Assembly: GCA_026874595.1 (NCBI GenBank)
Contig: CM049306.1
Location: 61,014,019-61,078,018 of the forward strand
DNA from: Sipunculus nudus
Taxonomy: Eukaryota; Annelida; Sipuncula; Golfingiida; Sipunculidae
Length of the DNA: 64,000 nt
Direction of reading: 5' to 3'
In this document: piece after piece, positions 4,601 to 42,230 of the stretch
Layout: each line of letters opens with the position of its first letter
How positions within the stretch are numbered: position 1 is the stretch's first letter
Translations under genes and position numbers: made by a program
Notes under the pieces: model-generated
What the model was told of the DNA's origin: nothing
The model's input: the letters and a program-made list of their open reading frames with translations, nothing else
The model's database searches: none

Positions 4601-7600
4601 CGCTCCCAATCTGTTAATCATGACAACATGGTGCATCAAGAATATAAATATTCACAAAATCAACCACAAAGATCAACACAATAGAACTTATTATTAATGT
4701 ATTTAGCAATAAAATTTAGTCACAGTTACATTACATATTTATAAATTTTAACACAGAAATACTCAAAATAAGTGAAAATCCTGTTTTTCTGTTCTGTTGA
4801 AATTTTACATTTGTTTTCCTTGTCCATGAACATCTTTGCTAATTCACCATCTCCCTAATCTGCTGAGCTCCTTTAAATAAAATCAGCCTATATTTGTGTT
4901 TAAAAAGTATGATAAGATATGACACACTATTTCTAGTACATGCTGAACCTGGCTGTTACAGATATCACTCACCTGAGCTGGGTTATGAGCATAGGCAGGG
5001 AATTCTGTACAAGAGGGTCAGTATAGATGATACTTTGAAACAGGTGCTTGTTGTGGAGTTCCCAGGTCAGGTTAAATCTCTTCAAATGCTCCTTCTCCTA
5101 AAGGTACACCAAAACACCCTAAACAACTAGTCATGTGTAACATACAAAACAGTCTATATATGTCCTTAAAAACATACAAATTTAGACAGTCTATGCAACT
5201 AGACAGACAGTCACATAAAAAACTTGCATAATTCATTAGAGGACAGTTAACACTGGAGGTTGAGAAAAGCACACTTCATATCACGAGAAGGAAGTTTGAC
5301 ATAACTGGTCTACTTCTATAAAGTACTAGTCTGCTGGAAGAATCAAGTACACAGGTTTTAAACTGCTTACAATGTGAGACAAAATCTGCAAAATTAACAG
5401 CTGATTTAATAATTGAGTGTAATTCCATCTCCCATGCTGATAAAATCAACACACAATGGAACACTAATTTATGGCATAATGTGCCATTTATCAGCAAGAA
5501 AAGATATACATCCATAAGGCCATACTTATTTAATTTTTCGTTTCTTAGACCCGCCGACCCTAAATTGTGACAATTTGGAAAATAAATATAACAGTGTCCC
5601 TGTCGTTATTTTTTTGCCGCCGTTATAAAATGTGTCCATGAGTCGTCATATAAATCCCCTTAAAAAAGTAAACTTGCAGTCACTTCTACAAAATGCGACA
5701 CACACGACAGAGTGGGTCGTTTTTTAAGTCACTGCATTTGCCGTGCCCAGTTGGTGAAACATTTCCCTTGTCTTTTTCATGATCATCTAAAATCCAAGGA
5801 TCTGCGGAGATAAAAAGATTTTCTTCGTCGCTCTTCCTCAAGTCAAACCGTTCAAATGTTCTCCTTCATACTTTCACGTTTCTTCACGATCTTACCCGAT
5901 TTCAGTTTTATGTTCTTCTTGTCATGATGGACTGCTTACGTTCAAAAACATTAAAGGTGCTGAATATACCGGCTTCTGTGGCTCAGGGGTAGAGCGCAGG
6001 GCTCAAAGTCAGGAGATCGTGAGTTCAAATCTCAGCCGAGCCGGTGAGATCTTTCACGGTCGACCCCTACCCAGGGTGAGCGCTCTGCAGGCTCAATGTG
6101 GAGACTGTACCCAACAGTCGGGTTTCACTCACAAAGGAGTGCGCCTTTCGGGGGTTCCTCGGTGTTATGACCCACCAATGGGGATGAGACACACCCAGGA
6201 CCCGCAGGAGTGATTTACCGAGCCTGGATTTCTTGATAAAATTAGCTACTTTCGATTATTTGGATAACCGATCGCTGTGTGTATGCTTGTGGCATTGCTT
6301 TTGAGAGCACAGGAATTGTTGCACACGGACAATTTCCCGCCATGAAATCACATGAATGAAACTTAACGCCCATGCGTGTAGTATCCTATGAATCTCTGAT
6401 TGGCTCTCTTTCTAGGGCTGCTGGGCGGGGTCTCTTTCCGCCAATCGCATTGAAGCCCTGACAGGTCTTCATATGCAAATAAAATCTTAACTCTCAATCA
6501 AATACTCACGCAATAAAATACTAACAAGGGACCTATGGGTCACTGTGCTCAGCTGACGTTAACCTTGAAGGTAAAAATCTAAATAATATCTAATGGAGAT
6601 AAAGTGTAAGAGGAAGAGGTAATAAAGGCCATGGTTGGTTTATATGATTGGTTTGTTTGATGAGCAAGAAATTGTTGCAAAAAATATTTTGTGACCTGAC
6701 CATGTGTTTCCTAATGTTGAAACTAAAGCATGTGAGCAGTTTGTGAACAAATGATCTGTACTATTACCATGATCATTAGTTGGTTTTTTGATTAACTGTT
6801 GACATTTCAGTAGTTTACACATTTGTTCAATTGAATCTATTTTTTTGTATAATATATATTATTAAATATATATGTATTTTTTTTATGAAATGTATACAGT
6901 TGAAATATAGCTAATTAACAACATAAAACAGGGCAAACAAAGCCTGATCTCAAATTCTGCTGAGGCAGGAAAATAATGAACAAATGTTTGTATTAAATCC
7001 TGATTTTTTTATCACATCAATTATTTTCTAATCTAAGTTTATATTTCTATACATTTCCAATATAACATATATATCTGAATATAAAAGTTGATTCATAATT
7101 CTCAATTGCATCATCATAAATCTCAATCTTGTCAGATAACACCACATCATGCATACAAATGTTTATTTATTTTTTACCACAAAAATATATCTTTTAAATC
7201 TGTAAAACAATAAATATCTAAAAATAATACTTGATTTAGATTTCACAATTTTTAATTGTGTCTTTATTTATCCATAATGTGCTTCATATTTTATAATAAT
7301 TTAAGCATACTGATGGGTTCATTTATATTTGTTGAAATCATTTAAAAGAAAATTGATTTCTTTAAAAATGCTACATTACACATTGCATTTTTCTGGATTA
7401 CACCTTGAATTATTTTTTCAAGGAAAGTTTTTGCATATCGGAGTGGAAAGAGCATTACAATTAAGGAGATACAGTGAAAACAATAACAGTTACTGCATAA
7501 CACTTGGGGGGGGGGGGGGATTTAGACAAACTAAATATTTATGATTACATGCAGTGAAAATTAAATCAATGGTGCTTACAGGGAAAAAACGTGCCATGGT

Positions 7601-10600
7601 CAAAGTTGGGCAAAATTTAAGGTACTGATTTTTTTTTATGCTAATAACTTAAAAAATTTACAAAATTCAGATCTAATTTTGGGTAAACAATTGAATCTTA
7701 ATTAAACATAGTTATATACTTGACAAAATTGACTCTAGTTTCAAAATTTTTCATGTTAAGTGAGTTATTATTTTTCCTGATTTTTTACAAAGTCCATTAT
7801 GTTTGGGCCCATAACTTTTTTAAATTATATAATACTGACTTAATATCTGGCATGTACATAGAAACTATATAGAGGAATTTTTATGGTAAATATGAGGAAA
7901 AACAGATGAGTGGTTTTGATATTAGGCAGTCCTGAAGTGTGAAAATAGGATTTTAATAAAAAATTGAGGTTTTTCCTTAATTTCTCAAAGGAACGAAGTC
8001 GCAAAGACCCAGTTTTCGGCTTGGTAGGAGATCTTGGAGACATAAAACATTATGCTGAATTTGGGATTCCTAGGTCTTACGGTTTCAAAACGTGCCACAT
8101 CTATAGACGGATGGACGGACGGATGGACAGACGGACGGACGACGGACAATGGACCACGACTATAGCTCAGATGACTTATAGTCAGCTGAGCTAAAAATAG
8201 CACTGGGCACATGTGTGTTGTTTTCAGAATGGCAAATACCGCGTTATGTACCGCTACCACGTTATACCCCTATTTTAAGGGCTCCGAAGTGTCTATCAAG
8301 TGACAGATGTACAAACCTTGTTGCAAACATTCTGAAATGATGTTCATCAATATATACTTACATATGATATATTTGTTTATATTAGCTTGATTTTTTCCCA
8401 CCTTGCAACTTACGTATGATATATTTGTTTATATTAGCTTGATTTTTTCCCACCTTGCAATTGTTTACATTTCTGAGGGGTAAAGTTTTACCTCATTTGA
8501 TATATTTGATTAAATTTCCGATGGGTATATTTTTACCAGATTTTTTATATAGTATTTTTTATTTTGTGTTTCTGAGGGCATTTTTTTCAATGATTGACAA
8601 CAGATAGATCCTATCTTAAAGATTATTTCAGTGATATTTTAAATAAAAAGGACTTTGCTTATTTTCTGACTGGGTGACCCTGATGAACCTTGATGTGCGC
8701 TTAATCATTTTTCATGGCTATTTTCATTTGCCTGAACTTTCCTTTATTGGTTGTAAGCTTTGTATTTCCACTGACCATAAAATATACTTCAAAATTAACA
8801 GTTTATTTTGCAACCAGTCTCCTGTACAGGTCACTTTAAACTTCCCAGCTGTTTTAGTAAGAAAGTGGACTGATTGGTTTTTCAAAAATATTAATTAAGT
8901 GGAAATTATTAATTTATCAATTGTTAATATAAATTGATAAATATTTATTTAAAAAGTAGAAAAATCATGATTTTTTTTACCAACCCTTCTAGAAAGTATT
9001 GAGGATATCCTGCAGATACAGAAAATACTATAGTTCACTTGACATTGTAGAAGGGCACATATAGTTCCTATATATTCATTTCATCATTTGTAAAATTTAT
9101 ATGGAAAAAATGGCACTTTTCATTTTTTAAATTTTGAATTATATTTATTTTTATTTTCCCTCCTCCTCCCCACCACTTTTCATTTCTTTGTCCGATAAAC
9201 TTTTTATTAAATAAGTAAGGCCTAATTATAACATTTCCTGTGGGTTACATAAAGTGGATTAAATATTAATGTAATTAATGCATCTAATCACCCTTCAATT
9301 AAGACATCTCTAATATATTATTATTATTATTATTATATTGCTGTGTGTAAACCTACCAATTCTGTAAGGAATGAAGCGAGTGTCTTGGCAGCAGCACACA
9401 GATTGGAGTACTCTTCTAACAGCATCGAGACAAACTGTTTGGCCTGAGGTGGCGTCTTGTGGCCAGAAGTCAGCTGTTTCAGGAGCCGCACCTTCATTTC
9501 TATTACATACTCCCGTCCCTGAGACTCCAGGCGCTGGTATAGCTGATGGGGATCTCTGGTCACAAGCCTGTAGCATAAGACAAGCAAAGACTATCTATGG
9601 TGGAAATCACCCACATGCAAGTGTTTGTTAACGTCTCTGTGTAATAGGATGATCTGACATACCTGGCAGATGTGTGGGATCAAGCCAGTTGTTGATGCTC
9701 ACAAAATAAACATTTAATCACATCACCAAGAAAACAAACTTCATCACTGAGTGTGTACCGATACAACCCTTATCTGATAATCATTTTTCCCAATATATGT
9801 TCCAAAAGAACCAGGATACTGTCCAAAGATCCATAAAAAGTCACCAGGCTCCACATTTTGTGTCATTATAGATCTACCTGATAAAGCATATTTTTTGCTC
9901 ACTTGTTCAGAAATCTATATTCTATGTAAACAAGTAACCCATGGGTCATGACGCTCAGCTGACCGGCATGTTGACAATATGTCCTTGCACAGGCAACTAA
10001 TTAAGATAATGTAGGTGGCACCATCGTTCATGCATATTAGCACACCAAATCTGAGGACAATTAAACTAGCCTTTCCAGAGGAATATGGCAATTTTTGTGT
10101 ATTTTCATTATTTCTGGGGTGCTCATACATACCCCAAAACTCTAAGAATATAGGTCAGAGTGACCCAATTTCAGGTTTCTTGGGAGAACTTTTGAGGAAC
10201 TCTCAGTTTGTTATGATATGTGCCCTACTTTGGTGTCAAATTTTCAGTTATTCTTAAAGGGTGCTTATAAGCCCATTAGCTCAGAGAATATGTGTAACAG
10301 GGACTTATTTCAAGTTTCCAAGGAGACTTTTCATGGACCTCCCAGGATTTCAGGTTAGAAGATTCAAGGTCCAATGGTTATGATTTGTGCCCTGCTTTGG
10401 TATCAAATTTTCAATTATGCTAGGGGGTGCTTACAAATAAGCCCCGTAGCTCAGAAAATATGGGTAACAAAGACCTAATTTTTCATGGCCCTCCGTGGAT
10501 GTCAAATAAGAAGATTCCAGGTCGAATGGTTCCGATTTGTGCCCTGTAAACAGATGATCGCATTTTTGAAGGTCTCAAAAATTAAGTAAAAATTCGTACA

Positions 10601-13600
10601 AAATTGAAAAAGTGCAGGTAGCGCCACCAGCCTGCAGGAACTGATGAAACATTCCATGATCAATATCCATGCAAAAAATTGTGGTGATCAATGCAATAGT
10701 TGTTCAGATACTTGAGCTTTTGTATCAAATTTTTCATTATTCTGGGGGGTACTTCAGAGCCCCATACCTTGAAGAATATGGGTAACAGAGACCTAATTTC
10801 AGGTTTCCATGGAGATTTTTCATGGACCTCCCTAGATATGAAGTTAAAAGATTCCAGAACCAACAGTTACGATTTATGCCTAGTCGGACAGACAGATGGA
10901 GGGACAGACGCCAGACAAAGAGTGATCGCTATAGCTCAGATGACTTTCAGTCAGCTGAGCTAAAAAGAAACATGTTCTGGTATAATACAGAATATTTTAA
11001 TCTGACATTATTGCACATTTTCTTGCTGATACACATAAACAAGGCCTACAGGCCTAATGCGAACCTGTGCAAAGTTTGGGAGTATGAATGGAGGTTTATT
11101 TTTAAATTTAATATTGATCCTTTTAAGTCCTGCATATCTACCTCAGTCATTATGATTTCAGCAAAATGGACATTTCGGACCTGCAAGTTTCAGACTAGGA
11201 CATTTTAAAACTAGAATATGGGTAGTCAAGCGACTATGTGTATCCACAGAAATCAGAGTGGGATGGGTGAAGTGAGGCATGGATTAAGTGGCAAAGGGAA
11301 TAGAGTGAGGTGTGTTGCATATTAGCATGGATGTCTGCAGCATAAACGTGAATGTAGGTGGTGCCACCTGTCATAAAATCGAGAAAATTGTCCAGGATGT
11401 ATAAACCTGCCAAATTTCAGGTGGATAAGTCAAACCACTGCTGAGATATGAGTGATATTATCCCAAGGCAGATGAACAGATGGACGGTGTTCATAAGTGG
11501 TTGCAGGTGGCGCCACCAGTTTTGCCTATGATGAAGAGGTATGCGAGATCTAAACACATGCAAAATTTTGGCCAAATTGGTCAAACAGTTCCCGAGATAT
11601 GAGCTTGGATGTCTGCAGAGTAAACGTGAATATAGGTGGCGCCACCTGTCATAAAATTGAGAAAGCTGTCCAGGATGTATAAACCTGCAAAATTTCAGGT
11701 GGAAAAGTCAAATCACTGCTGAGATATGAGTGATATTATCCCAAGGCAGATGATCAGGTGGATGCTGTGCATAAATGGTTGCAGGTGGCATCATCAGTTT
11801 TGCCTATGATGAAGAGCTATGTGAGATCTATACACATGCAAAATTTTGGCCTAATCGGTCAAACGGTTCCCTAGATATGAGCTTGGATGTCTGCAGAGTA
11901 AACGTGAATGTAGGTGACGCCATCTGTCATAAAATCGAGAAACCTGTCCAGGATGTATAAACCTGCAAATTTCATTTGGATAAGTCAAACCACTGCTGAG
12001 ATATGAGTAATTTTATCCCAAGGCAGATGAACAGATGGACGCTGTGCATAAGTGGTTGCAGGTGGCGCCACTAGTTTTGCTTATGATGAAGAGCTATGTG
12101 AGATCTATACACATGCAAGATTTTGGCCCAATCGGTCAAACGGTTCCCAAATATGAGCTTGGATGTCTGCAGAGTAAACGTGAATGTAGGTGGCGCCACC
12201 TGTCATAAAATCGAGAAAGCTGTCCTGGATGTATAAAACCTGCAAAATTTCAGGTGGATAAGCCAAACCACTGCTGAGATATGAGTAATTTTATCCCAAG
12301 GCAGATGAACAGATGGACGGTGTTCATAAGTGGTTGCAGGTGGTGCCATCAGTTTTGCTTATGATGAAGAGCTATGTAAGATCTATACACATGCAAAATT
12401 TTGGCCCAATCGGTCAGAAAGGTCAGAGGTCAACCAAAAATGAGGGCGCAGCAGTTCACATGTGACCTGATGATAAACCCAATTCGCTTAAAATGCAAAC
12501 CAAGTTTTTTCAAACAGTTGAAAGATATACCGTATTTATGCGTGTATAAGACGACCCCAATGTCGTGTCTTAAATTTTGATTCAAATTATTTTTCAGCAT
12601 CTTAAGTTGGAGCTGCCAGCTACTGAGGATCACTTTGTTGGCATAATGATCACTTTTACACTGATGATTGAAATGGGATTTTATAGTTCTTGATTCTTAA
12701 AATGGTCAATGGTATATTTTTTTTATGATGCTACAAGTGAAAACAGGAACGTAATATAGAAAGGTATGGTGCGGACCAAAACACATTAATTAAACATATC
12801 AAAGAATGAGTATTATGCAACAATTCAAATTAATATCATAAGAGACATTAAAGGGTCAATATTAGGGCCCAAATTTGGGTAATAAATTATTATCCAGGAG
12901 ATGGCACCTACTAAGAATTAACATGTCAAGAGAATGTGCATTACAGGGCATTGACACCTTCCTCTTTGAAAAAAATAAATTTATTTCAAAGAAATGTCAG
13001 TCTTCTGCATAATTTGAGAGAGATCACCCCAAACACCCACTGCATATCAGGGTCCACATCCACAAGTGGCTTAAGGTAGACAAGTGACAGCGCAGGAAAC
13101 CAAGGCTTCCATGATGCTTTACTTAACTAAGCTTCCTAATTTATTATTCCGTGTTAATCTTAAACTATCGAAAATTACATTTTCCTGGCCTGTCCACAAC
13201 CATGTCTAGGTCATCAAATTTTCCCACAAAATATATCACGTTTGCGTAAACGACGTCGGTCAGGTTCGAATTTATTCTGTTGTACCAGTGATGAAGGTAA
13301 AACCTAATAAGGTAATGACCCGGTAAGACTTTCGTGAAATACGTTATTTTACGACATTTAACTGTGTGCAAGTTCAATGCTACCTTGTAGAAACCAGGGT
13401 TTCCATTCGGTTACTATTTAATAGATCATTTCCCAAGAGGATATACGCACCAAATCCGGATTTCGTTATAAAATTGTGAGGAAATTCGTCATATTTATAT
13501 CCTGCGGAAACTCGGTCCCTTTTTTGAACTTTGTTGACCCGTTATAATATATTCATTTCTTGACGTAGTCCAATAATACAAGCTTGACAAACATTGAATT

Positions 13601-16600
13601 TTGCGTCACCTGAGGAAAGGGCGCTTCATTTTTATATAATTATAAAGCGCTACTGGTTGTCTTGTAATCGAAGTGCCATGTGCAAGTCTCCGTGTATGTC
13701 AGTGTGCAAGCCAGCTGACAGCGTCCGCATTCACTGGACTCGTGAACATTTTAGGCGGTAAATACGGCACCATATGAAAAAATCATCCTTGTATTAATAT
13801 GCATATTACGTGCTACTGGATGGCATTAGCAAGTTCCCAGAATCCCTTGCGCGAGCCCTGTACTCTTGGATCTTGAGTACATGGGTAAACCCCGCAAGCT
13901 GATAGCGGCTTCGACAATTATATCACTGCGTACCTGTTTACAGTGAATTGCCAAGATATTTTTTGGCAAAATATATTTTAAAACATATTTTCAGGATTGT
14001 GAATTCCGTTTCGGTCTGTCAGTTCCGCGAAGGGCTCTCATATATTGATTCCGTTAAAATTTCTGTGTCAATGCGGCAAAGGCAAACCTTTTCATATCAA
14101 TTATTTAACTATGTGCGCATGTAAATCTGACGATAAATATAAACGAAAACAAAGCACTGTAATGTTCTTTATTGAGTGTACATTACCACCATACGGACAT
14201 GATTACCGGTAATCACGCCGTCCAGTTCGACCGACGTAATAATGCTGATTGCAGTAAATTATCCTTGGCTGCCCTGAGGATGCTGAAAAACTTGTACCCT
14301 TGTATAAGACGGCCCCTCTTCTTTGCCAAATATTTTTAGGATAAAATTTGTCGTCCTGTACACGAACAAATACGGTGTTCCAATAATCTAGGAATTCTGC
14401 ATCTAAACATTGTGTCTAGACGTCTAGACGCTGTATCCTAGACGTCTAGACAATGTGTCTAGACACTCCCCCCAGAGCCAGGTCAGTTGCCATGGTGATG
14501 TCTGGACCCCACCTGTTTGTACTGAGTGACCTCTTGACTTGGCTGCTGAAACTCAAATCTGTTTTCAAATACAGAAAGCCTTTTTCAATTAGCTACAATG
14601 TTTTTTTAAAACTGTATTGACCCTATCTATTCTTATAAAACTGGCAGAACCCTACCATAGAATAATTCTTGTAAAGTTTAAACCAATCAGCTTAACAGTT
14701 TCATCATAAATCAGTGTATAAGCTAGAAGAGTTTAAAATTACATTTTCGCTTGTAAAAAACACATCAATGTAGGTGGCGCCACCAATGTCTCAAAATCAG
14801 ATATGACATATGTGACAAACATTGGTATAAAATTTAGTGATTATAGCTCTAGCCGTTTCTGAGATTTTAATTTTAGTATGCTTTTTTGGACAGATGACTA
14901 AGTTCAACCTCCTTTAACTCAGCAAAAAATCTCCGAACTGGAACCATTGGAACAAACTTGAGAGAGATTGTTCCAGGGATCATTTCTGTGAAATATTGGA
15001 CAATTTTGCTGGACAGTTTCAGAGAAGAAGATTTTTAACGGTTTTTAAGCTTTTTCTCTATAAAATCTAAATTAATGCAGATACCCAATAATAAGCTCCA
15101 GGGCACCAAGTTTCACATGTGACAAATTCTTACATGTAATTTGGAGCTGCTAGCTCCGACAGTTTCTGACTTACAGCCATGGACGGTGGAAAGCCAGCCC
15201 TGGACGGCGAACAGCGGACGGCTGACAGACGACGCTGCGCCATCGCATAAGCTCACAGGTTCGCTAAAAACAATCTTGCTGTCTTGGAGGCAAATTATTA
15301 CATCTGACTGACTGAACAGCGAGGACACTTCTAAGAAGGAATCTTTAACATTAATAATCAGGCCTGTTACAAGACCCTCAAGGTAACGATTCCTCTCTCA
15401 CCTGTGAACCAGTTCCTTCATCTTTTTAATATCTGGGAGGGCAGTTGTCTCTGTGTCATCTGACTCTGAGAGCCCAGTGCCCGCCTCTCTGTACACACAG
15501 CGAACTACATGACGTAACTCCATCCAGCACTGCTGTAGCTCCTGTGTTTCTTTTTCATGTTCTGCTTCTATTTGCCTGAAATACCACAAAATCAGACATA
15601 TTACAATTTTTGCCAGTCTGAATTTTCAGGATGCTCAAAATCATGTGTCAGTCTCATAGATTGCAGAATATTGTTAACAGTGACAAAATTTCACAGTTCC
15701 GACAAACTGGCCAGTGACCTTCCTGGATATTAGGTAACAAGCAAATTCATGGAATTTATGTCCACCCCCTTCCGCCTCTTGTTGTCCCCTGCTTGCCCTA
15801 TCAATATGTTTAAATTTTTATGGTTCCCTGAAGATGACTCCACATGTTTGAAATTTTTTGTTTTGGAGCTGTTGATCATAAATTGTCACACAGACACTTC
15901 AAAACCAATCTCAACTTAGGTATGCACAGGAGCAATCACTGACCCAAATTTGAATTAAATCTATATAATATTTAGGAAAGTTATCGCACTGAAACAAAAA
16001 CCTGACAGACAGACAAACCCAAATCAATGTCCCCCATTCCGAAGAAGTGGGGGAAAATAAGTTTCTAGGCTGAATGGATAAGATCTGTGCCATGCCTGAC
16101 TTAATGACTGCTCAATATCATGTTTTTGGCTTGCAACTCACAGAATATTGGCTATCATGACCTAATCTTGCCACACATGGAAACATTTGAAATTTAACAT
16201 TTATTTGATAAGCAAAATTGAAAGTACTGTGGAAACAGAATTTTGAAATAATTCTGTTAAATTTAAAGTCCATTCATTCATTTGCTCAAGGGAATCCTTG
16301 TGTATGATTTGAAGGCTCAAGTACTCTTTATTTTCCTATTTATCTGAATGAAAGTGGGAGAGACTGTTTTGAATCAAAGAAAGCTAAAACAGAAGGTGGC
16401 CCCACCTGCAGGTTATCACAACATTTTAGATTTTAATCAAAGAATGGGGGCAGGACATACGGACAGAAGGGTAGAAGAAGGGACAGACAGGGCAAATTTT
16501 AGTAGTCCTCTCTCCTACAGCAAGGGACTAGTAATGGGACCATATGCATCTAATTTAAACAAGGGACCCATGGGTCAGTGCTCAGCTGAAGTTGACCTTG

Positions 16601-19453: not shown

Positions 19454-19513
<60 letters not shown>

Positions 19514-20407
19514 AAGAGAGACAGAGAGAGGGGATGGAGCATTCAACAGTACTTAAACACCTAGAAGGTTAAAATATAAAATATTTGAAAAGCAGATAAA
19601 GTCTGATTGGAAAAGGTAATCTTGGCCATGGTTGGTTGATATGATTGAAGAAATTGTTGCAAATAATATTTTGAGATCTGACCATGTGCTTCCATTGGTT
19701 ACCTTTTTGATAAGCTGTTGACAGTTCAACAGTTTACAGATTTGTTTAATGAGATCCAATTATTTTAATAAACCTATTTTTCTATTTTATCATATATATA
19801 CAGTAGCCATAAAGTCCCCACTTAACAGGTGGAAGGATTGACTGGGGGGGGGGAGGGTGGGGGGGGGGGGGGGGAGGGAGTTATGATGGGAGTTAAAACG
19901 CCTCAGTATTTCTGTATATATTATCTTTAATTATTAAATTTTATGGAAAAGCAATAGAACTATTGTTCACAGTGCCAAAGAGCAAGGACTCTACGGGGTG
20001 GGGGAAGGGGATGGTGGGAGTTACAGCACCCTTGCATATTCATACAGGATATTTAATTGAATTCAAGTGCTTACAGAGAAAATGTTTATTCATAATTATT
20101 AAATATTTAAGCAGGCAGAAAAGGTGGAGAAACAAAGCAAATCATTTTTATTCCCATTCTACTGAACCAGGAAAAATTAACAATATTTGCCTTTATTCCT
20201 TTTTTTCAATACATCATTTTTTCCAGGTTTAAAAATGTAACTACACATTTACAGTATAACTTATATATATATATATATATATATGAATATATCAGTTGAT
20301 TCACATTTCTAAATTGCTTCAACATTCATAGCTAATTAATCTGGTTTATAGTACCTGTCAACAGAATGGGGTGCAGGGAGAATGGGAGGCTTAGGGGTGA
20401 GAGAGAA

Positions 20408-20443
<36 letters not shown>

Positions 20444-26400: not shown

Positions 26401-29400
26401 TCTTTCAGCTTTCTAAACTAAAAAGCTGAAATCCTTATGTGTGCATGATATGAAAATTATATCAACAGTGCTCTCAGGAAACAAACGTGCCATGGTCACA
26501 GTTGGGCAAAATTTAAGGTACTAATTTTATATTTAAACTAATAACTTATAAAATTTGAAAAATTCAGAACTAATTTTGGGTATTCAATTGAATGTTGATT
26601 AAATAATGTTACATCCCTGACAATAAAATCTCTAGCTTCAGCAATGCCCTTGTTAAGGGAGTAAATATATTTCTTGATTTTTTACAAAGTGCATTATGTT
26701 TGGGCCCATAACTTAAAAAAAATACACAATACTGACATCATTTCTGGCATGTGCATAGCGAATGTATAGAAAAATATGTATATTATATATGATCAAAGTC
26801 AGATCAGTGGTTTTGATATTAGGCAGTCTTAAAAAGTAACAATGAGTTTTTAATGGAAAAATGAAGTTTTTCATTGATATCTCGAAGGAATTAAGTCCTA
26901 GTGACCAAATTCTTGGCATGGTAGGGGATTTTGGAGAAATCTAACTGTATGCCAAATTTAAGGAACTTAGAGCTGAAGCTCAGGAGCTGAGCTCTAGCAA
27001 ACTGCATAACACTAGCAATATGTGACATGGTGCTTGAAAACTTGAATAAAATCTACAGTTTTTGATCAACTGGTTTCAAATTTTTGGTGTTAACAGTTGA
27101 AATGCTAACAAAAACATGCTGTGAAAATTAAATCCACAGCAGTTAAAGCAAAAAAACGTGCCATGGTCAAAGTTGGGCAAAATTTAAGGTACCAATTTTT
27201 TATTTTTGCTAATATTTTAAAAAATTTAAAAGACTTGATCTAGTTTTGGGTATACAATTTAATTTTGATTAATAAAAGTAATATTACTGGAAAAAAAGTG
27301 CTTAGCTTTAACAAGTTTTGTGTTAAGTGATAAAATTTCTTTCCTGATTATTTACAAAATGCATTATGTTTGGGCCCATAACTTTTTTAAATTATACAAT
27401 ACAGACCTAATTTCTGGCATGTACATAGGAATTATATAGAGGATTATTTATAGGAAATATGAGGGAAAACAGATGAGTGGTTTTGATATTAGGCAGTCAT
27501 GAAGTGTGAAAATATGTTTTTAATAAAAAAACTGAGGTTTTTCCTTAATTTCTCAAAGGAATGAAATTCGCAAAGACCCAGTTTTCAGCTTGGTAGGAGA
27601 TCTTGGGGACATCTAACATTATGCTGAATTTTGGATTCCTAGGTCTTACGGTTTCAAAACGTGCCACATCTACGGACGGACGGACGGACTGACGGACGGA
27701 CAGACGGACGGACGACGGACAATGGACCACGACTATAGCTCAGATGACTTATAGTCAGCTGAGCTAAAAATCCTCCAACAAAAACCTTATAAGGAAACCC
27801 TTTAGAACAGAGACTGGACAAATCGTTTGGCATTCAACAAAATTTCTGACGACTCACCTCCTTTCTGTGCAAGCTTCACAGTTACAGATTCAAAAAAAAA
27901 TTTCTGATGACTCACCTCCTTTCTGTGCAAGCTTCACAGTTACAGACAGCAGCACCAGAGGGCTCTGCCTCTGCAGGATCCATTTCTGGAAAGAAAGGTG
28001 GCTCCATTCCCAAATCAGGCTCCTGCAAAATTAAAGTTTTCCAGTTATGAACTACCATTAATACACAAAACTGTGAATATGTACATGTGTGACCAAATAT
28101 TTAAGAAATGCTGTCATTTGACAAAACTTGAAAAGGATATGACTATAACACTAAGGTTTAAAGGGCCAGCAAAAATTCAAGGAACGAGTTAAGAGTCCCA
28201 CCATTTGTAGTCACATTTCGTCTTGTCCCCCCCCCTCCCCGAGTACATACAGAAACATACACGTACTCACCAGAACTTTTTTATCTTCTTCTTCCACTGT
28301 CTTCTTACAATCAGCACAAACATAAAGCTACAAAATATTGCAATGATGAAATTATCAGGATGCACTGTCTATATTGTATAAACATGCCAATAAAATACCC
28401 ACAGACTTGTTTATTTATCCTGTAATCCTATCTATTTAAACTTACTGAGCTTTATGTCCTGTTGATGGTGACATCAGTTCAGAAACAAGGCAAAAAGATT
28501 ATGGTTCTTTGCTTGTTTTTTTTTCTTTACTTGTTTTATCATTGCTTGTTTATTTCATTGCTCCTGACAAGAACTAAAAAGAATTTATTGTCCAAAAAGA
28601 TTTATCTACAGATGATGAAAAACACTGGTACAAACCTGGGGAAAGCCACCTCCTTCTTTCCCATCTCCTTCATCCCCTGCTAAAAGACACACATAACTGG
28701 TTAGAAAAAGGTGGTTGCACAGTCACAAAATTTCACATTAAATGTAGAAATCACAATTGATTTATGGACAGTCTTGATGGACACATTAGCTGCATCAGCT
28801 AGTGACTGGTGCCTACTTGCATTAGCTGCATCCACTAGTACCCACTTATATTAGCTGCATCAAACAGTGCCCACTCACATTCACTGGATCAAATAATCCC
28901 CTATTCACATTAGCTGGATCAAACAGTGCCCACCTTACCCACTTAAAATTTGCTTAATCAAATATTGCCCACTAAGATCTAAATACGAATTTAAAACCAC
29001 TCTGACTTATAAATTCGTAGAATGTTTATAAAATTGTTTTTGTCAGTCACAGACTAATCTGTGGAAAAAGAACAGAAAAGAGCTAGCAAATGCCCTATAA
29101 ATGTGAAGTCATAATAAGAAAGCACACCCCTTCAGTGTACAATTATCAATTTTCCTTATCTTTATTGGCCAAAACTTGGCACCAGCCCTCTTAGTTACCA
29201 TCCAGTTGATCAATCCCAGTTCCCATTCTCGAGGAAATATGATGAGACTGGCTTATGACCGGGGAGGTGACCAATTAGACATACAATGTCTATGATACAA
29301 AGTTAAATCACAAAAACAGATCACTGGGAATTGATATGTTTCATAAAATAATCTATCCCAGGAATGATTCAGACTGAGGAATGGGTATGATTTAATCATG

Positions 29401-32400
29401 AAACAATCAATTTTTCAGTTTGCAATCTCTGTTTCATTACCAGCTGCTAATGACTTATGTAATGTAACTTACATAATGTAACTTATGTTTGACAAGCTAA
29501 ATCCCTCAAATAAAAATTAAAAATATACTGGACATAAATATTGTAGGAAATAAACAAAAAATCAATTTGATAATCAAAGGGGTTAGAATTGGCAAGAAAG
29601 AGTAGAGCATCAACCTCAGTGTTTATTACATGGTAACAAGATGGTAACTAAACCTCTCTCATGCATCCTGCTGTTAACATATAAAGGCTCTATTTTAATA
29701 ACATTAGTCTATGTGATAAACATATTGCATGTACTTCATTAATAAATCATTCATAACATTAAACCAAATACTGATCAGTACATGACACCAACCTTGATCC
29801 CCAGCCTCAGACTTGGGAGCATCAGGATTTTCACATCGACACAGCAGACACCGCTCCCTGCCCAGGTACGGCAGCGGACCTCCTTTAGCGAGCTTTGAAG
29901 GATGGTGTTCCACTCCATCTTCCTCATCCATCAACCGCTCCAGCTCCTCAATATCCTTGGCCTGGAAAACATAAGGTTGAAACCTTTAGAAACCTTGTCA
30001 AGGTCAAAATCTTGAATAACCTCAAAAAGTATCTAAAGTGGAGCATTCCCTAGCATGGGAGTATAATTAGACTGGGTGTCTTAAACAGTGAAAATCAGAA
30101 GGTCAGTTCTGTGACCTTGACTCTAACACTCTGACCTCTAAGTTGACAGGCTTCTTCATCTTTCAGTATGTGGGCGATATTTAAAAGAAAATTTAATTTA
30201 AAATGCTTCCACAAACTTCATCTAGAAGTGGATCCTAAGCCTTAACCTTTGACCCCATGATCTCACAATCTATAGGGTTCTTCCTGTGTGGGTGGGTGAG
30301 CCACATATCAAAGACAGAAGGTTTGGGGTTAAAGCTGTTGCTTAAAATGGGCCCACTAGCTTTTGCAAGAAGTGGGTCCTGTGGCCTTGACCTTTGACCA
30401 AATGACCTCAACACTGATAGGTTTCTCTGTGTGGATGAATGAGTGATACCTGCAAGATGAAAGGTTTTGATCAAAAGGTTTGGCTTTAAATGGGTGCACA
30501 AGTTTTTTCAAGAAGTGGGCCCTGTGGCTGTGACCTTTGACCCCATGACCTAAAATCGAAAAGTATCTGCATCAATAGGTGGGTGACCCATATTTGCAAG
30601 ATAAAAGGTTTTGGTCAAAAGTTTGGCTTAAAATGGGTCCACAAGTTTTTTCAAAAAGTGGGCCATGTGGCCTTGACCTCTGACCCCATGACCTGAAAAT
30701 TCAAGGGACATAATCAGGAGCAATATTATTCCTATTCTTTCAGACTATCAGTTCAGTTTTGCTTTATACAAAAGTTTCCAGCGAAACCATTCCCACACAC
30801 AGTCACATTTCCTCTCAGCAACTGTTTAACACCTTGTTATAGCCCTGCGTGTTGGTAAACAGTCTGTTTACAATAACAAGACTGCATGATCAGAGGTCCG
30901 ATTAAGAGGTGCAACACGCGGTGTTTCAGCCAGCAAGAAAATGTATTACAGTTTTTAAGCCAAGTCAGTCAGGGCATCTCCTGATTGGAACGTGTTATGG
31001 CTCCGCGCAGCACATGGCCAGACACACTATGTTTATGTTGACACCTGCGATACCGCCTGGTTCACTGTTTTTAAAACTCGTTTACAGGAGTAAGCAAACA
31101 GTTTCAAGGCAATATTCTGGCAGGTACAGATTTATTTTAAAGGGAAGAAGCTATTTTTCGTGTTTACTCAACATTCTTTATAGGTGATTGGGTCCCTTTA
31201 ATAGGCTTCTCCATTCATGGATTGGTGAGTGATACCTGCAAGTTGAAAGGTTTTGGTCAAAAGGTTTGGCATAAAAATGGGTCCACAAGTTTTTTCAAGA
31301 AGTGGGACCTGTGGCCTTGACCCCTTGTCCTCAAAATTGAAAGGGTTCTTCATCCATGGGTGGGTGAGCCATATGTGCAAAATGAAAGGTTTTGGTCAAA
31401 TGGTTTGACTTTAAATAGGTCCACAATTTTTTTTTCAAGAAGTTGGCCCTGTGGCTGTGACCTTTGACCCTGTGACCTCAAAATCGATAGGGTTCTTTAT
31501 TTCAATGGGTGGCTGAGATGAATTGAAAGGTTTTGGTCAAACTGTTTGGCTTGAAATTAATCCACAAGCCAATTCCAGATAGACTGACAGATGCACAAAC
31601 TGAGGCATTACTATATCCCTTTTGCAAGGCGTTGTGAGGGGATAATAGGGTCAAAATCTTAAGTAACCTCTACAAGTGTCAACCAGGGACCTATGGGTCA
31701 CGTCTCTCAGCTGAATTTTGGAAAATTAAGCAAATGCAAAATAAACTTATTTCTTTCAGTTTTTCATATAAATTAGCATTTGAAGCTAAGAGGAAATGGC
31801 AATGCTCAAATGAAACCCTGTACAGTATAGAATAATGGACATAAGCCAAAATAAAATAATAAACATTAATTTATAAACTGAAATAAAATGCTGTAAAAAA
31901 AGGGTCTGCAGGATCTGATGAAACACTCCATGATGAATGCGCATGCAAAGAATTATGGTGATGAATAGATTATGTGTTCAGAATCTGGAGGTTCTGTATC
32001 AAGTTTTTAATTATACTGAGGGGTACTTACAAGCCCTATAGCTCAAAGGATATGGGTCACAGAGACCTAATTTTCAGGTTTCCAAGGAGATTTTGCACGG
32101 ACCTCCAAGGATGTCCAGTTAGAAGATTCCAAGACTGTGGTCCAGTGGTTAAGATTTGTGCCCTGTTAAGTGACAGACAGACAGATGGACAAAAGAAAAA
32201 AGAGTGATAGCTATAGCTCAGATGACTATCAGTCAACTGAGCTAAAAACTTGTTGTGCTCCAAAAACATATATTGGCCAACCAAAAACACAAGGGGTAAA
32301 AATATTCTCAAAACAATGAATCTAGATTTCAACAGATCTGACCTATAAGGGAAAGAGACAGAAGAATATTAGCCAGATGACTGTGGCAACACATCTGAAT

Positions 32401-35400
32401 GTTGGAGCTGGCCTATTCTCAATACAGGGAGTCTGCTGTAAGAATCACAATTTACTCAAACTGAGTCAATAGTAATAACATTATCAGCCCTAACTGGTGA
32501 ATGTCACTGACAGCATGAATACCTGCATGAAGACGTCACTGATGATACCAGCATCTACAGGCACCAGTTGTGCTATTAACACATACAGTCTGCTGTGTAA
32601 ATAGTGATACCAGAAATGACTCTCACACACTGCCCATCAGCAGTGACACTGACTTGAAGCTGCTTGGCCAGTCAGTGATAATATCAGCAGCTGATGTGAT
32701 ATTACAAGGCCTATCAGCAGTGACACCACCTTGAAGATTCTTGGCTGGTCCTGTTGCAAAGGCTTGACAGTCTGAATCTGTGTTCATGAAATGTACATCT
32801 TTGATAATTCAGCTGTTTGGAGAAATTAAATTATTTGTTTCAAATGTTAGGAATTAACAGAAAAAAAATGAAATGCTATTGTAGTGCATGCAAAATCTAT
32901 GTTTTGCTACAGAAATGTCAAGACTTGGCAATCCAGGATCTGCAGCAGTACCAATGCTCAAAACAACCCATGCCATTCTTCATGATTCTTGAGATATCTG
33001 TTTTGTGTAATATTCTAACAAAATGGACTGATTTCAGGGCAAGATCTTTTACTGTCAACATTAGGTTGTCAAAAGATGGAAGCAGTCACTGGGGAATACA
33101 GCTCAATATAACCTGTCATATGGCCAGGCAACAAGTAAAGACAGAAGCCAACTGCTGGCTCACCAGGTTCTAAATAAGTGTTCTCTTCACTTTACTGGGT
33201 CCACATGTAAGCTCCCACAGGCAAGTTATTTATCAAGTTATTTACTGAGCATTGTTATAAACACCTTGCTCTCTATCCCTGGAAGCACTTTCTTCCCTAA
33301 GGCCCAGATATTATACAGTATATGACTTAACCAACTGCTAACATTTTTTTTTTTCACTTGTATCATCATAATGGAAAATTTACATATTTTATTTAGATGC
33401 AACAACAGTCATATCCTTTCAACAGGGTAATATAATCAGCTGAACCTAAACATGGGTGACACAACTTAATAATTTGTGTAAGCCAGCTTTTCATGCACAA
33501 GGTCTTGGCATTGTAAACTAGGGACCCATGGGTCACCCCACTCACCTGAATTTGACTATGACATATATTTATCAAATCCTGCATACAAAAAAGCTGAGTT
33601 TTCGTTTACAAATAACAATGCTGCACTGTGTATCCTAATGCTACTTTGGCAATATTTTTAATTAGCCTGTCCTCCATGTATAGACTCCTTTCAGTTTCAC
33701 TAAGTTCCCAAGACGTAAAGTTGCTTAGGCACCTAAAATGGTTATACATGTCGAGACATGAATAAGGAATATGTTTGTTTCTATCCCAATATTTTGTAAT
33801 TTTTTTTTCAGTTTTTAGAATATTTGTATAAATAAACAAGGGACCCATGGGTCACAGCGCTCAGCAGAACTTTGGAAAAATTTTAGCAAATCCAAAATGA
33901 ACTTTTTTTTGTATATACATTAGCATTTGAAAAGCTAAAAGGAGATTGCCCTCTTATATGGTGTTTTCAAATATTAATTATAAATATGCCAAACTTATTC
34001 TGTGCACTTTTATGGACTATATCAAGGATGCAGGAGTCTCTTAGGAAAGCAGAGAGAGCTACACTGAATGACCTCCAGTGACCAAAGTTGTTTGCTGACA
34101 ATGGAAGTGAACACAATAAGAGTCTACAAAAAATTCAATAACTAGCCTAAATAATTTTTTAGCTTTTATTTTTAGATAAAACCATTTTATATGTGTACAT
34201 GCTGTGAAATTGAATCCACAGTACTTATATGAAATAATGTGCCATGCTCAAAGTTGTGCTAAATTTAAGGTATTGATTTTATAATTATGCTAATAACTTA
34301 AAAAAAATTACAAAATTCTGATCTGAATCTGCTATATAATTAAATTTTTATGAAAAAAAAGATATATCCTGGGTAAGAAAAGCCTCAAGATTACACTATT
34401 ATCTTGTTAGGCGAGTAAATATATTTCTTGTTCTTTTTTTTTACAAAGTGCATTATGTTTGAGCCCAAAACTTCAACAATTTATGCAATATTGACCTAAT
34501 TAACAACATGTACAAAGGAATTATATGCAGGAATGGTTATATGAACCATGAATATATTAACACTAGTGGTTTTCATAGTTGGCAGTTTTGAAGTGTAAGG
34601 CCAAAAAAAATAAAAGGTATGGTTCTCAGGCACCGCCCGCGTCAATTTTAATCCCCTGCATTAAAAATTTTTATTTTGATTTTCAACAGAAACTTACCAA
34701 TTTTGAACTGCAGCCACTCGGACATTTATTTCAAGAAGATAGAATCATACAATTTTGATTAAATTTTCTTTGTTATGTAGTGTTTTTACGTGTTTAGCAA
34801 AATAAATCTGTTAGTATCACGCTTTTCCCTTATCATTTGCATTTTTATCGAAACATACAAAAAAATTAAAAATAAAAAAACCTACCGCCCGCAATGATTT
34901 CTGAAAAAAAGTGCCTGAGAACCAAAACTTATTTTTTTTTGGCCTAACAATAGGTTTTTACTGGAAAAAGGAGGTTTCCCCTTAATTTCTCAAAGGAACA
35001 AAGTTACAGTGTCTCAGTTTTTGGTTTGGTAGAAGAACTAACTAACTAGATTTTTGGACCAATCATTGCATCCCTTATTGAGATATTTAAGATTTTGTTT
35101 GATTTTTACCAATATTGAAATATTCAAGGTTAAGGCCACTCTCATAAGAAAAATCATGACCCAATTTAAATATACCTCATCCCATCATCCATATCTATGT
35201 ATATGCATAATAATGAAGAAATCTGTCCATTAGTTTTTGACCAATAATGCTCACAGTATTGTCAAGTGACAATGGAGTATTAAAAGGCGCAAAAGCAAGG
35301 AAAGGATAATAGGTGCCGCCTCCAATTTTAGGTACATAAAGTTCTTCAGTCATCTTGATTTTTGGATCAATCCATGCAAGATTTCTTGAGATATTTTAGA

Positions 35401-38400
35401 ATTTGTTAATTTTTTCCCAAAAATGGACCTATTCGAGGTCAAGGTAACTCTTCTAGTAAAGGTCATGACCCCATTTGAAATAGGCTTCGTCCTCACATCC
35501 ATATCTATTCACAAGTCAAAGTTTGGTAAAGATCTGTGAAATATTTTTTTTAGAGATATCACGTAAACAAGATTTATTTGTGGCAGAGGCGGCGGGACCA
35601 ACATTAAACCATAGTATTCCCAGACTTAGTCTGGGTATACAATGATAGCTGATGTTTTTTGTGACCCTACATGCAAACATGCAAGGCGAGGCAGTTGAGA
35701 AAAGCTAGAGGATAATGGAGGTCATATGACCAAGAATCTGGTGCAAATATATCAAGATGAACCATTGGGTGCCCGAACAGAGGTCAGAGAGGTCATAGCT
35801 GGCTCAGATCAATTTGTGAATGGTCCATGAGGGGTTGCACAGCTTGCACTTCAGTCATTTGACCAGATGACATGATCTCACAAGCTTCAGGTACCCTCAC
35901 TTTTATCCAACTGCATCATCCATTGTTTTGATGTATGTCACTGGAGTGTCAGTCTCTTCTTTCTGACACTGCACCCTATTACCCTAACTGACAATTGCCA
36001 GTATTAGTGTTGGGACGATATGGGTTTTTTGATATCATGATAATTATTCAAATTTTATCGCGATATACCGTGATATCGCGATATTTTTAATTATATATAG
36101 TGGCATTAATAAGCCATCAATAATGATATTTATAACAACCGCCTTTAAAGTCTTGACTTTATACAAGGGGTTAAGTATTAATATCATTTATACCTATTGG
36201 CCAGTACCACAGATTGACTCATTAAGTGATGTAAGTTGCATGAAGGTCCTGCAGGTGTGCAAGCTTGAGGCGCGGGAAGTCCTGCCCCCATCGTTGAATC
36301 ACGCTTGTCAGAACTTTCCATCAGTTTCCTATAGCTACATAAAAGCCGGAGAATCCCGGCGAATTTTCGGAGAGCGTGTCATACCAATCATGGCTAAATA
36401 TACCATCCCAATTGTATATGGCAAAATATGCAACCCGTATGGAATGTTCGATTCAGTGGTGACACTTTTATGTTGACATTTTCGTTCCATGCAATAAAAG
36501 CATAAACATGTGTATTTATTGCTCTTTCATTATAATGTTATTTTCTCCCGGATTTCTCAAGCTTTTGTCCTCTGATTCATCCTGCTACTTTCGGACATTT
36601 CCGACTAATCCCGAAGTCTGTAAGCACACGGTTCCACCCATACGCGTGTATTCAAATACATGTGGTTTATAAAAATAAATGTGATTCTTTGAAATAAATT
36701 TATTTTGAACTTCAAGGGCTTGCTTGTGAACCAAAATCGTGAACAAATATTGATATCGTGATATCGAGATAATAGGAAAGTTGACGGTATGATAACCGTA
36801 GCTGTCAGATATCGTGATAATACCGTATACCGGTAACCGTCCCAACCCTAGCCAGTATACCTTACAAACATATGTTCATGCTGACTGACCTTCTTGGATG
36901 AATTTGAGGTTAAATATCCAATTTTTTAAACTAGTCTTTTCTGCAGCAACATCTTACATGATGAAATGTACAAGGCAAGACACAATGGTGCAGTCATAAT
37001 AGACGTTACGCACAAAGAGGCACCCATATTCATGGGACCAATGATCAAGAGCTGCTGACCCTTGTCAGGGATGTGCTCAGAATAATTTGAGTGCCGGGCA
37101 GGCCGTGCACGTGAAATATTGGGGAGGGGGGGGGGGGGGGGGGGTGCATGGGATATTTAAACTTTTTTTCTAGACGTGAATTGTGATATTTCAGTTTCAT
37201 GAACAAATTATTAGTAATACTATTAAGTATTATTAATTTCCAAAATGCCGACAGCAATTTGGCCACTGAGAGCAAATTAGATTGTAAAACACAGTCACGG
37301 CATTGTGAATTCATCTGTCAGTTCAGATTCTGTCAGTCAGGATTTGTTGCAGATTATTTCCATATCATATGGATATAAGAAGGGACCGTATTCAGTTTCA
37401 CATGCTTAAAATCTGATACCAAACATCATATTCCATTCCTACAGCAGTTTGGCCTCATCAGGAATTGTGACCTTTCAAATATATTTGAATATTCACGCTG
37501 ATCATCAATGACAGTCAATCAAAAACATTGTTTGGCGCATCATGTGATTTCATAGAAGCTGATATGAGCATTAATCTTTTATACAGATACAAGGTGGTGC
37601 TACCATAGCAACTACTTTCACAACTTTCATACCAAATTTTATTCAATGACATTTACTCAATACGGCACATTGTGAAAGAGTACCTTCTATTAAATTATTC
37701 ATTTAAGGTGCCACTGGATGTCATCTAACATGGCAGACATAGTGACATATACCCAGATATATCCGACAGGGTCACTGTCAGTGACTAATGGCAATACAGG
37801 TAAAACACCGCAAGATAAACTTACATGTGTGAATTTTTGTTCATGGCATAAGCAATTTTAAAATGTTACTATCGAGCAGGCACTGACACATTCCAGTCAA
37901 GTACCAGGTGGCAGGAAAGACAGCCAGGCGCACCCACCCACAATGCCCGGCGTCAGCACATCCCTGCCCTGTGTACAATAAGGTTCAAATTCACCTCATG
38001 CACACGCTTCTTTTGTTATGTCATGACCATAACCCTGAAGGATAAACGATGGTCACTTGTTAGGGATGCCATGAACCACGGATGTAAATTCGAGACATGT
38101 CAACCAGGCAGTGAGGTGAATTTAATATTTATACCATAAGTAGGCGAGGTACCAAAAATTTACACAAATTCTTCTTTTTGCTGTAAGTGCAAAATTTGTT
38201 TGGCAAGTTATCTGGAGATAATGGCAAAAAATCTGGTGAACCGGTAGCTACAGGCCTGTAATGCAAAGAATTCTTATTCAATTGTCCTTGTTTGCGTTAC
38301 AGCTCCTAAGGAAAAGAGTTTGCCCTATAAACCTTGGTCAGAACTGACCAAAGTAGTTGAGACCACGATATATGCCGTTCAGCACGAGACATGCAATAAC

Positions 38401-41540: not shown

Positions 41541-42230
41541 TAAATGTGGTATATCCTCCTCAGTTCACATTCCTGATGATATATCATTATAAATGTGGTA
41601 TATATCCTCCTCAGTTCACATTCCTGATGATATATCATTATAAATGTGGTATATATCCTCCTCAGTTCACATTCCTGATGATATATCATTATAAATGTGG
41701 TATATATCCTCCTCAGTTCACATTCCTGAAGATATATCATTATAAATGTGGTATATCCTCCTCAGTTCACATTCCTGATGATATATCATTATAAATGTGG
41801 TATATCCTCCTCAGTTCACATTCCTGATGATATATCATTATAAATGTGGTATATCCTCCACAGTTCACATTCCTGATGATATATCATTATAAATGTGGTA
41901 TATCCTCCTCAGTTCACATTCCTGATGATATATCATTATAAATGTGGTATATCCTCCTCAGTTCACATTCCTGATGATATATCATTATAAATGTGGTATA
42001 TCCTCCTCAGTTCACATTCCTGATGATATATCATTATAAATGTGGTATATCCTCCACAGTTCACATTCATGATATTATTAAAAATATGGTATATGCTCCA
42101 CGGTTCACATTCATGATATTATTAAAAATATGGTATATGCTCCACGGTTCACATTCCTGATGATATCATTATAAACGTGACATCCACCACAATGCATATT
42201 TCTAATGCTGTCATTATAAATGTGACACGC
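41541..42230. repeat. 49/51-bp satellite array
   Basis: Units read AAATGTGGTATATCCTCCTC, then AGTTCACATTCCTGATGATA and TATCATTAT. The first few units are 51 bp (TATATATCC) and later ones 49 bp (TATATCC). Degenerate units continue to about 42230. The 51-bp units keep open frames on both strands (41540-41794), which explains the repetitive predicted peptides. Confidence 0.93.

Follow-up and report, generated by a model that had tools for sequence, protein, structure and literature searches.

The window analysed here is a stretch of 64,000 nucleotides of the Sipunculus nudus genome (G000:C1:61014019-61078018; genome of 1.43 Gb, 153 contigs), in which several families of interspersed repeats lie beside and within each other. 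An earlier note on this DNA had distinguished six of them by their copies at 6523, 11209, 22585, 35041, 14767, and 29997 (families 1 to 6, in that order) and had ascribed to all of them one structural plan, that of the non-autonomous Helentrons known as HINE or pearl elements. Helentrons transpose by a rolling-circle route and encode a protein that combines Rep nuclease, PIF1 helicase, and AP-like endonuclease. For families 1, 2 (11209 and 16964), and 3 this reading was right in kind, as they carry subterminal inverted repeats, a 5′ hairpin, a 3′ palindrome, a GTCC-type microsatellite, and central modules, and they are very probably HINEs, i.e. non-autonomous passengers of Helentrons, with a presumed rolling-circle mode of working as outlined below. 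The reading is further backed by insertion into A/T runs, by the lack of target duplication in the sites compared, and by the Helentron genes of this genome. Anatomy, copy numbers, unduplicated target sites, and Helentron genes are all direct observations; that the Helentrons of this genome move these families is what we infer.

The ends were located in the window by approximate matching of end words, whereas genome-wide counts are of exact words, with the reversed word as the control. Read on the + strand, the left end of family 1 consists of AACAAG, the palindrome GACC(C/T)ATGGGTC, and GCTCAGCTGA, and its right end of GCTCAGATGACTTATAGTCAGCTGAGC followed by TAAAAA. Nine left and six right ends of this family lie in the window. 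Family 2 contributes three ends there (two left, one right) and family 3 one of each kind, and every one of these ends reads on +; four minus-strand matches of family 1 fall on the same right-end hairpins, the one exception among the minus-strand matches being an 8-difference match within the family 2 element. Family 2 is represented at 11209 by its left end and modules only, its complete copy being that at 16964-18137. The exact end words number 4355 for family 1, 2248 for family 2, and 1678 for family 3 across the genome, with 0 for the reversed words, and are balanced between the strands (2115/2240, 1157/1091, and 856/822, respectively). A microsatellite and central tandem repeats are present in the families that follow the HINE plan, including family 7 introduced below, with the microsatellite of family 2 being merely vestigial. 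The pearl elements of bivalves, too, carry a tetranucleotide microsatellite.

The polarity proposed in the earlier note has to be reversed, because the elements of the window match the published HINE order only when read on the minus strand, where a T run is followed by the hairpin, a GTCC-like microsatellite, the modules, the inverted word, the palindrome, CT(A/T)G, and TT. The AAC(A/T)AG and palindrome that were taken as the opening of the elements are their 3′ end (palindrome, CT(A/T)G, then TT), AAC(A/T)AG being the complement of CT(A/T)GTT with its first two bases probably belonging to the target, and the terminal hairpin with its A-rich end, taken as 3′, is the 5′ end. The strands in Table 1 follow the HINE convention, with the 5′ hairpin at the high coordinate, while the earlier note had used +.

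The hairpin plan is real and is predictive of new families. A structure-only scan looked for AAC(A/T)AG followed by a word that comes back, at most 4.5 kb on, in an A-tailed hairpin; it gave 14 matches on + and 2 on -, compared with 0-4 per strand in 12 Markov controls. A GC-filtered grammar scan of 264 kb around and including the window (C1:60914019-61178018) gave 13 and 5, respectively, while its four Markov controls stayed at 0-4 on each strand. Of the 18 matches in this second scan several resemble chance, and two are copies of a previously unnamed family, family 7, whose layout is AACTAG-AATATCAGCAGAAGCTGAC-AAAA-GCCCTCAGCC ... GGACGGACGGAC ... CCATCAGCCTAAGGGCTGAGGGC-TAAAA and whose 33-base end has 1088 exact genome-wide copies (554 forward, 534 reverse; reversed word 0). 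A further one, family 8, came from the flank of a Helentron open reading frame (ORF) on contig C11 and has 420+507 exact end copies, with 0 in the control. The plan can be called predictive because a scan built upon it found family 7 outside the window, and the flank of a Helentron gene gave family 8. Both ends of family 7, like those of families 1, 2, and 3, bear the subterminal inverted repeats, and the word of family 8 occurs at both kinds of end. The ends of family 8 form same-strand clusters, with 8 places in C1:64761021-64777637 and 10 in C1:105182947-105207134; their spacing is mostly 1.7-3.6 kb in the former and reaches 7 kb in the latter and 20 kb in C2:3518484-3556250. Two family 8 ends on C11 (L053) adjoin with only AA between them, as read at a single junction.

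The strongest regularity lies in the 5′ hairpins, which were folded as single-stranded DNA. In families 1, 2, 3, 7, and 8 the z scores are -5.8, -7.8, -3.9, -5.9, and -5.9, respectively, with 0/200 shuffles as stable in each, and the words that form these hairpins are unrelated in sequence. In each, 27-32 nt fold into a hairpin whose outer stem (6-9 bp) is separated by a break of 1-2 bases from an inner stem (4-6 bp) that carries a loop of 3-4. The inner stem is present in 5/5 families. For comparison, one strand of the 264 kb, HINE ends included, contains 394 hairpins whose 8-bp arms lie 11-16 nt apart, and 28 of them have such an inner stem; the arms used for families 7 and 8 were 6 and 9, respectively. 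The terminal tetranucleotide is CTAG in families 2, 3, and 7 and its one-base variant CTTG in families 1 and 8. The shared geometry over unrelated words supports recognition of shape together with a four-base terminus, without proving a single machinery, and the argument from shape is limited in that families 7 and 8 were discovered partly via their hairpins. It offers a concrete hypothesis for what the Helentron Rep recognises. Sequence nevertheless matters within a family, since each family retains its own word at both ends.

Where family 2 is nested in family 1, the joined flanks are identical to an uninterrupted relative at 65/75 positions, and the junction is one base shorter and shows no duplication; family 3 in L020 leaves joined flanks identical to an uninterrupted copy at 80/87 positions, with one extra A and again no duplication. 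Target duplications, to which the earlier note had looked as a sign of other superfamilies, are thus absent from the sites compared, one of family 2 and one of family 3. At other family 3 sites, comparison with related repeats shows a few extra A (among the sites listed: L014, L023, L024, and L028), where L023 and L024 have common flanks and may represent one duplicated insertion. Twenty family 3 copies from elsewhere were read in addition to that of the window; 17 have an intact 5′ end, which is followed by AAAA in 16/17, while one has a degenerate 5′ end and three have none in the stretch read. The window copy at 22585 sits right in the A/T run that closes a family 1 element.

The elements are new and their kind is known, as unrelated HINE families of one architecture have already been published for the oyster. 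Published HINEs are described as having a 5′ subterminal inverted repeat (subTIR) with a complementary inverted repeat and a microsatellite, and at the 3′ end an inverted subTIR followed by a palindrome (PMC7492417, PMC4067079). By description, though not by sequence, the Cg_HINE elements of Crassostrea gigas (PMC7492417) resemble those of the window in the 5′ subTIR with its complementary inverted repeat, the GTCY/GTCC microsatellite, the central tandem repeats, the 3′ subTIR with its palindrome, the T-rich target, and the absence of target duplication. The source lists eleven such elements, some of which are unrelated in every module, as well as ten autonomous oyster Helentrons, none of them related to the Cg_HINEs, which is the same gap as is met here; Cg_HINEs are reported to integrate in both orientations, and the available parts of the source describe no local strand coherence. 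Pearl elements of bivalves, compared likewise by description and not by sequence, are similar in their short central-repeat arrays (via PMC7492417). The HINE/DINE-1 elements, according to PMC4067079, have one subTIR close to the 5′ end and the other 38-60 bp short of the 3′ end, a 3′ palindrome, and a T-rich target without target modification, and their partners encode Rep, PIF1 helicase, and endonuclease; they differ in that some HINEs of mites arose by deletion from Helentrons that have been identified, whereas no parent was found here. Helitron2/FoHeli of Fusarium (PMC5148889) shares the asymmetric terminal inverted repeat, the 5′ hairpin, and the inverted copy tens of bp inside the 3′ end, and self-insertion and duplicated ends are discussed for it in the same source, yet it belongs to the Helitron2 class and not to the endonuclease-bearing Helentrons, with other target and terminal words. 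A canonical Helitron (5′ TC, 3′ CTRR, insertion between A and T) was also considered as a model and rejected, as the 5′ hairpin of the present elements follows a T run and insertion is into A/T runs; their 3′ CTAG agrees with CTRR in families 2, 3, and 7 only.

The genome does possess the genes that such passengers would need. A Helitron Rep model gave at least 143 matches in the genome (150/195 candidates scored), some of which are pieces of one gene, with open frames of up to 2426 aa and widely varying scores. The frame of 2235 aa on C11 contains Helitron_like_N, PIF1, OTU, and Exo_endo_phos domains and the motif RGSPHAH; as the RGS(P/L)H motif of Rep is described as diagnostic of Helentrons (PMC4067079), this frame, with Rep bearing that motif, a PIF1 helicase, and a C-terminal endonuclease, is by its domains a Helentron. 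Family 8 was considered as the end of this Helentron and rejected, its hairpins lying 5.4 and 6.7 kb after the ORF with no matching end in the preceding 8 kb. Neither a hairpin scan nor a comparison with a second Helentron gave ends for it, and the comparison, which covered ~4 kb after each ORF, yielded one common 140-base match in opposite orientation. The sequence downstream of this ORF (L049, L050, L053) contains imperfect long repeats and 148-bp satellite-like modules that end in family 8 hairpins.

Several findings have to be set against the HINE reading. The 3′ palindromes of families 1, 2, 3, 7, and 8 fold weakly (z 0.7, -1.9, -3.1, -2.2, and -1.8, respectively); families 1 and 8 end in CTTG, which departs from the CTRR of canonical Helitrons; and since the query for the family 3 copies already contained the AA that precedes CTAG, this AA is selected, not discovered. 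In the 22 kb around the C11 Helentron ORF its own ends were not found, family 8 ends being present on one side only, and the 264 kb around the window contain nothing beyond a single weak match to an endonuclease (E 1.6e-6). The ends of the families studied were not seen on any Rep-encoding element, both flanks having been read for one Helentron only. As to the autonomous Rep-helicase element with the same hairpin ends that the earlier note had proposed to look for, Helentron genes exist in the genome, and none could be joined to the ends of these families.

In the mechanism proposed for the HINE families, the Rep of a Helentron would open a strand at the 5′ hairpin, following which the helicase would peel off a single strand, with the 3′ palindrome and CT(A/T)G presumably acting as the stop and cutting site, and the peeled strand would enter a T run, leaving no target duplication behind. 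The word of a family would be free to vary as long as the hairpin geometry and an inverted copy at the other end are kept; if these two features suffice, unrelated sequences can therefore be carried.

Either one Helentron machinery or several may serve these families. The existence of several Helentron lineages, each with a sequence-specific Rep that binds the word of its family, so that the geometry would reflect common ancestry of the ends, has in our estimate a nearly even chance. Each family having its own word at both ends, the wide range of scores among the at least 143 Rep matches, and the two Helentrons sharing but one 140-base match in opposite orientation are in keeping with it, whereas the recurrence of the inner stem, the 27-32 nt spacing, and the break position over unrelated words in 5/5 families speaks against it. 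The view of the earlier note, in which one Helentron machinery reads hairpin shape and the CT(A/T)G terminus and serves all families, is possible, although we incline against it: it accommodates the conserved 5′ geometry, the terminal tetranucleotide that is identical in families 2, 3, and 7 and varies by one base in 1 and 8, and the interleaving and nesting of the families, but no common autonomous partner was found in the 264 kb around the window or the 22 kb around the C11 ORF, and Helraiser reportedly needs its left end but has no strict requirement for the right one, hairpin included (PMC4778049). That ordinary terminal inverted repeat (TIR) or short interspersed nuclear element (SINE)-like repeats with chance hairpins are at hand is highly improbable, for although two of the six families named (14767 and 29997) lack the plan, it is already contradicted for families 1, 2, 3, 7, and 8 by the numbers of exact end copies, which run from hundreds to thousands against 0 for the reversed words, and by the lack of target duplication in the sites compared.

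The new part of the analysis concerns orientation: neighbouring HINEs, even of different families, tend to share a strand more than expected by chance within ~50 kb. In the 264 kb, with matches on the opposite face of the same hairpins discounted, the ends of families 1-3 read on + throughout the window and at 77-138 kb, on - at 150-163 kb, and on + before the window with one exception. Pairs were counted among the first 100 listed places per family, the HINE families on C1 only; for family 8, 67 C1 places were collapsed into clusters and 33 on C2 were left out. Such pairs share elements, so that the permutation p values serve as guides, and duplicated blocks were handled only by distance thinning (family 1) and cluster collapsing (family 8). 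Among families 1, 3, 7, and 8, pairs of different families agree in 21/21 cases at <20 kb (p 0.0002). Family 2 served as a hold-out, its places being searched only later, and replicated the short-range agreement: its pairs with the other families lie on one strand in 24/28 cases at <20 kb (p 0.001), 28/36 at 20-50 kb (p 0.003), and 90/163 at 50-200 kb (p 0.2). For different-family pairs of all five families, agreement runs from 45/49 at <20 kb through 49/69 at 20-50 kb, 77/126 at 50-100 kb, and 131/216 at 100-200 kb to 886/1604 at 0.2-1 Mb, and after distance thinning 58/85 neighbours within family 1 agree (p 0.009). A control TIR element agrees with the HINEs in 6/14 pairs at <20 kb, this control being sparse, and with family 2 in 7/16 at 20-100 kb.

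Other counts weigh against such a reading of the orientation data. In families 1, 3, 7, and 8, 118/179 pairs still agree at 50-200 kb (p 0.0008), with no sharp stop at 50 kb; family 2 agrees with itself in only 10/17 pairs at <100 kb; and the span 0-3.3 Mb, where 37/41 lie on one strand, was chosen after inspection. The control is not clean, since the TIR element agrees with families 1, 3, 7, and 8 in 34/45 pairs at 20-100 kb, and its own pairs are few (7/14 agreeing at <200 kb on C1, 9/18 with C2).

The shared orientation may be due to insertion into DNA with an exposed strand, at replication forks or in transcription units, to selection acting in introns, or to the duplication of blocks. Asymmetry of the A/T runs was rejected as a cause, as 355 A versus 326 T runs in the cluster and 184 versus 126 in the nine elements are too weak a bias for 9/9. 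The more specific proposal, that Helentron passengers were inserted strand-coherently over ~50-kb domains by a machinery using single-stranded DNA exposed one way (lagging-strand template or non-template strand), is put forward tentatively and is, on balance, rather doubtful. If true, thousands of insertions per genome would constitute a fossil record of the direction of replication or transcription, similar to that of bacterial IS200/IS605. For bacterial IS200/IS605 and Tn7, a tie between orientation and replication is described (PMC5371812 among the sources), while nothing on the orientation of Helitrons or Helentrons was found in the portions of the literature that a search made available. 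The strand of the HINEs in the window is that of the exon-like frames of a candidate host gene, seen by eye on the minus strand at ~9.4-30 kb, which is one case only; a Pfam search with five exon/ORF translations of the window gave no match above the cut-off.

The claim that all six named families follow one plan holds in part: both ends are present in the families at 6523, 11209/16964, and 22585, that at 35041 shows half of the plan, and it fails for 14767, at the hairpin, and for 29997. The right-end hairpin of family 4 (z -5.1) has a geometry like that of the other families, and a mirrored word looked for near its left-end AACTAG was not found. In family 5, position 14767 is the start of interior sequence, as sister copies extend further left, so that its left end was rejected as an example of the plan; its right end, an A-rich tail, folds no better than shuffles (z 0.05). 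Family 6 has modules and was likewise rejected as an example, having neither a mirrored word nor a strong hairpin (z -1.2). A likeness of ~30 bases flanks family 6 (29998 and 31647, by eye), is absent from the sister copy examined, and is unexplained. The TIR element inside family 6 is ~500 bp long (30700-31201) and has AAGGGACATAATCAGG ends, its 19-mer occurring 419+414 times genome-wide.

Table 1. Repeat elements in the window, in window coordinates
Element	Positions	Strand	Basis
Family 1, complete	6523..8197	-	left end 6523, right end 8170-8197, GACG microsatellite 8106-8147
Family 1 subtype, complete	9929..10966	-	both ends; similar to 24152-25118
Family 2, 3′ end (window left) and four ~278-bp modules; 5′ hairpin end not found	11209..12424	-	
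Family 5, partial: module with GGTGGCGCCACC, degenerate microsatellite, TTCGCTAAAAA end, no hairpin	14753..15270	-	
Family 1 copy split by family 2 at 16964, closed by other family 1 end at 18799	16558..18803	-	89% identity to 6523-6899 and 7519-7962
Family 2, complete, nested in family 1, without target duplication	16964..18137	-	ends; joined flanks vs uninterrupted copy; hairpin z -7.8
Family 1 composite, left end 18799, right end 22586	18799..22586	-	end words
Family 3, complete, 180-bp modules, CGGAAGGA microsatellite	22585..24151	-	ends; hairpin z -3.9; in A/T run of adjoining family 1 end
Family 1 element	24172..25117	-	ends, similarity
Family 1, two copies of ~670-bp module, ACGG microsatellite 27672-27720	25159..27770	-	ends, similarity
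Family 6, ~143-bp modules, without the plan, TIR element inside at 30700-31201	30035..31629	unset	
Family 1, short, decayed	31681..32248	-	ends, similarity
Family 1, 3′ end only (window left end), decayed	33516..33548	-	end word with 5 differences
Family 1, window left end and body; right end not found	33835..35039	-	end word, similarity
Family 4, two similar stretches ~310 bp apart, strong hairpin 35610-35644	35041..35644	-	similarity, folding

The description of the families as unrelated-looking is accurate for their end words and less so for their interiors, which are partly linked in several families by a 12-bp palindrome, GGTGGCGCCACC. This word has 21 exact occurrences and 17 with one change (38) in the 264 kb, whereas the count peaked at 1 over 197 random draws among the 29 other palindromes with that composition. 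Families 1 (subtype), 2, 5, and 7 carry it in their modules, and it also occurs in further repeats, commonly within a longer shared context; it lies at 10617, 11357-12189, 14773, 17258-17815, and 24766 in the window and also outside it, so that the modules are not all unrelated; 0/38 occurrences fall in the window family 3 or in family 6. Its presence inside modules is a lead to how satellite-like modules are gained or kept. A full-text literature search for the 12-mer returned one unrelated paper only. A long array of the family 1 subtype, with a ~337-bp module and GGTGGCGCCACC in most units, lies at ~820-3640 of L036 (134.8-137.6 kb in window coordinates). Two satellite-like arrays of the window, at 41541-42179 and 59820-61900 with units of 49 bp and 41 bp, respectively, are apparently unrelated to the HINEs, and at 12529-14378 an element of ~1.85 kb was noticed by eye, its long inverted ends being CCGTATTTATGCGTGTATAAGACGAC and a sequence nearly complementary to it.

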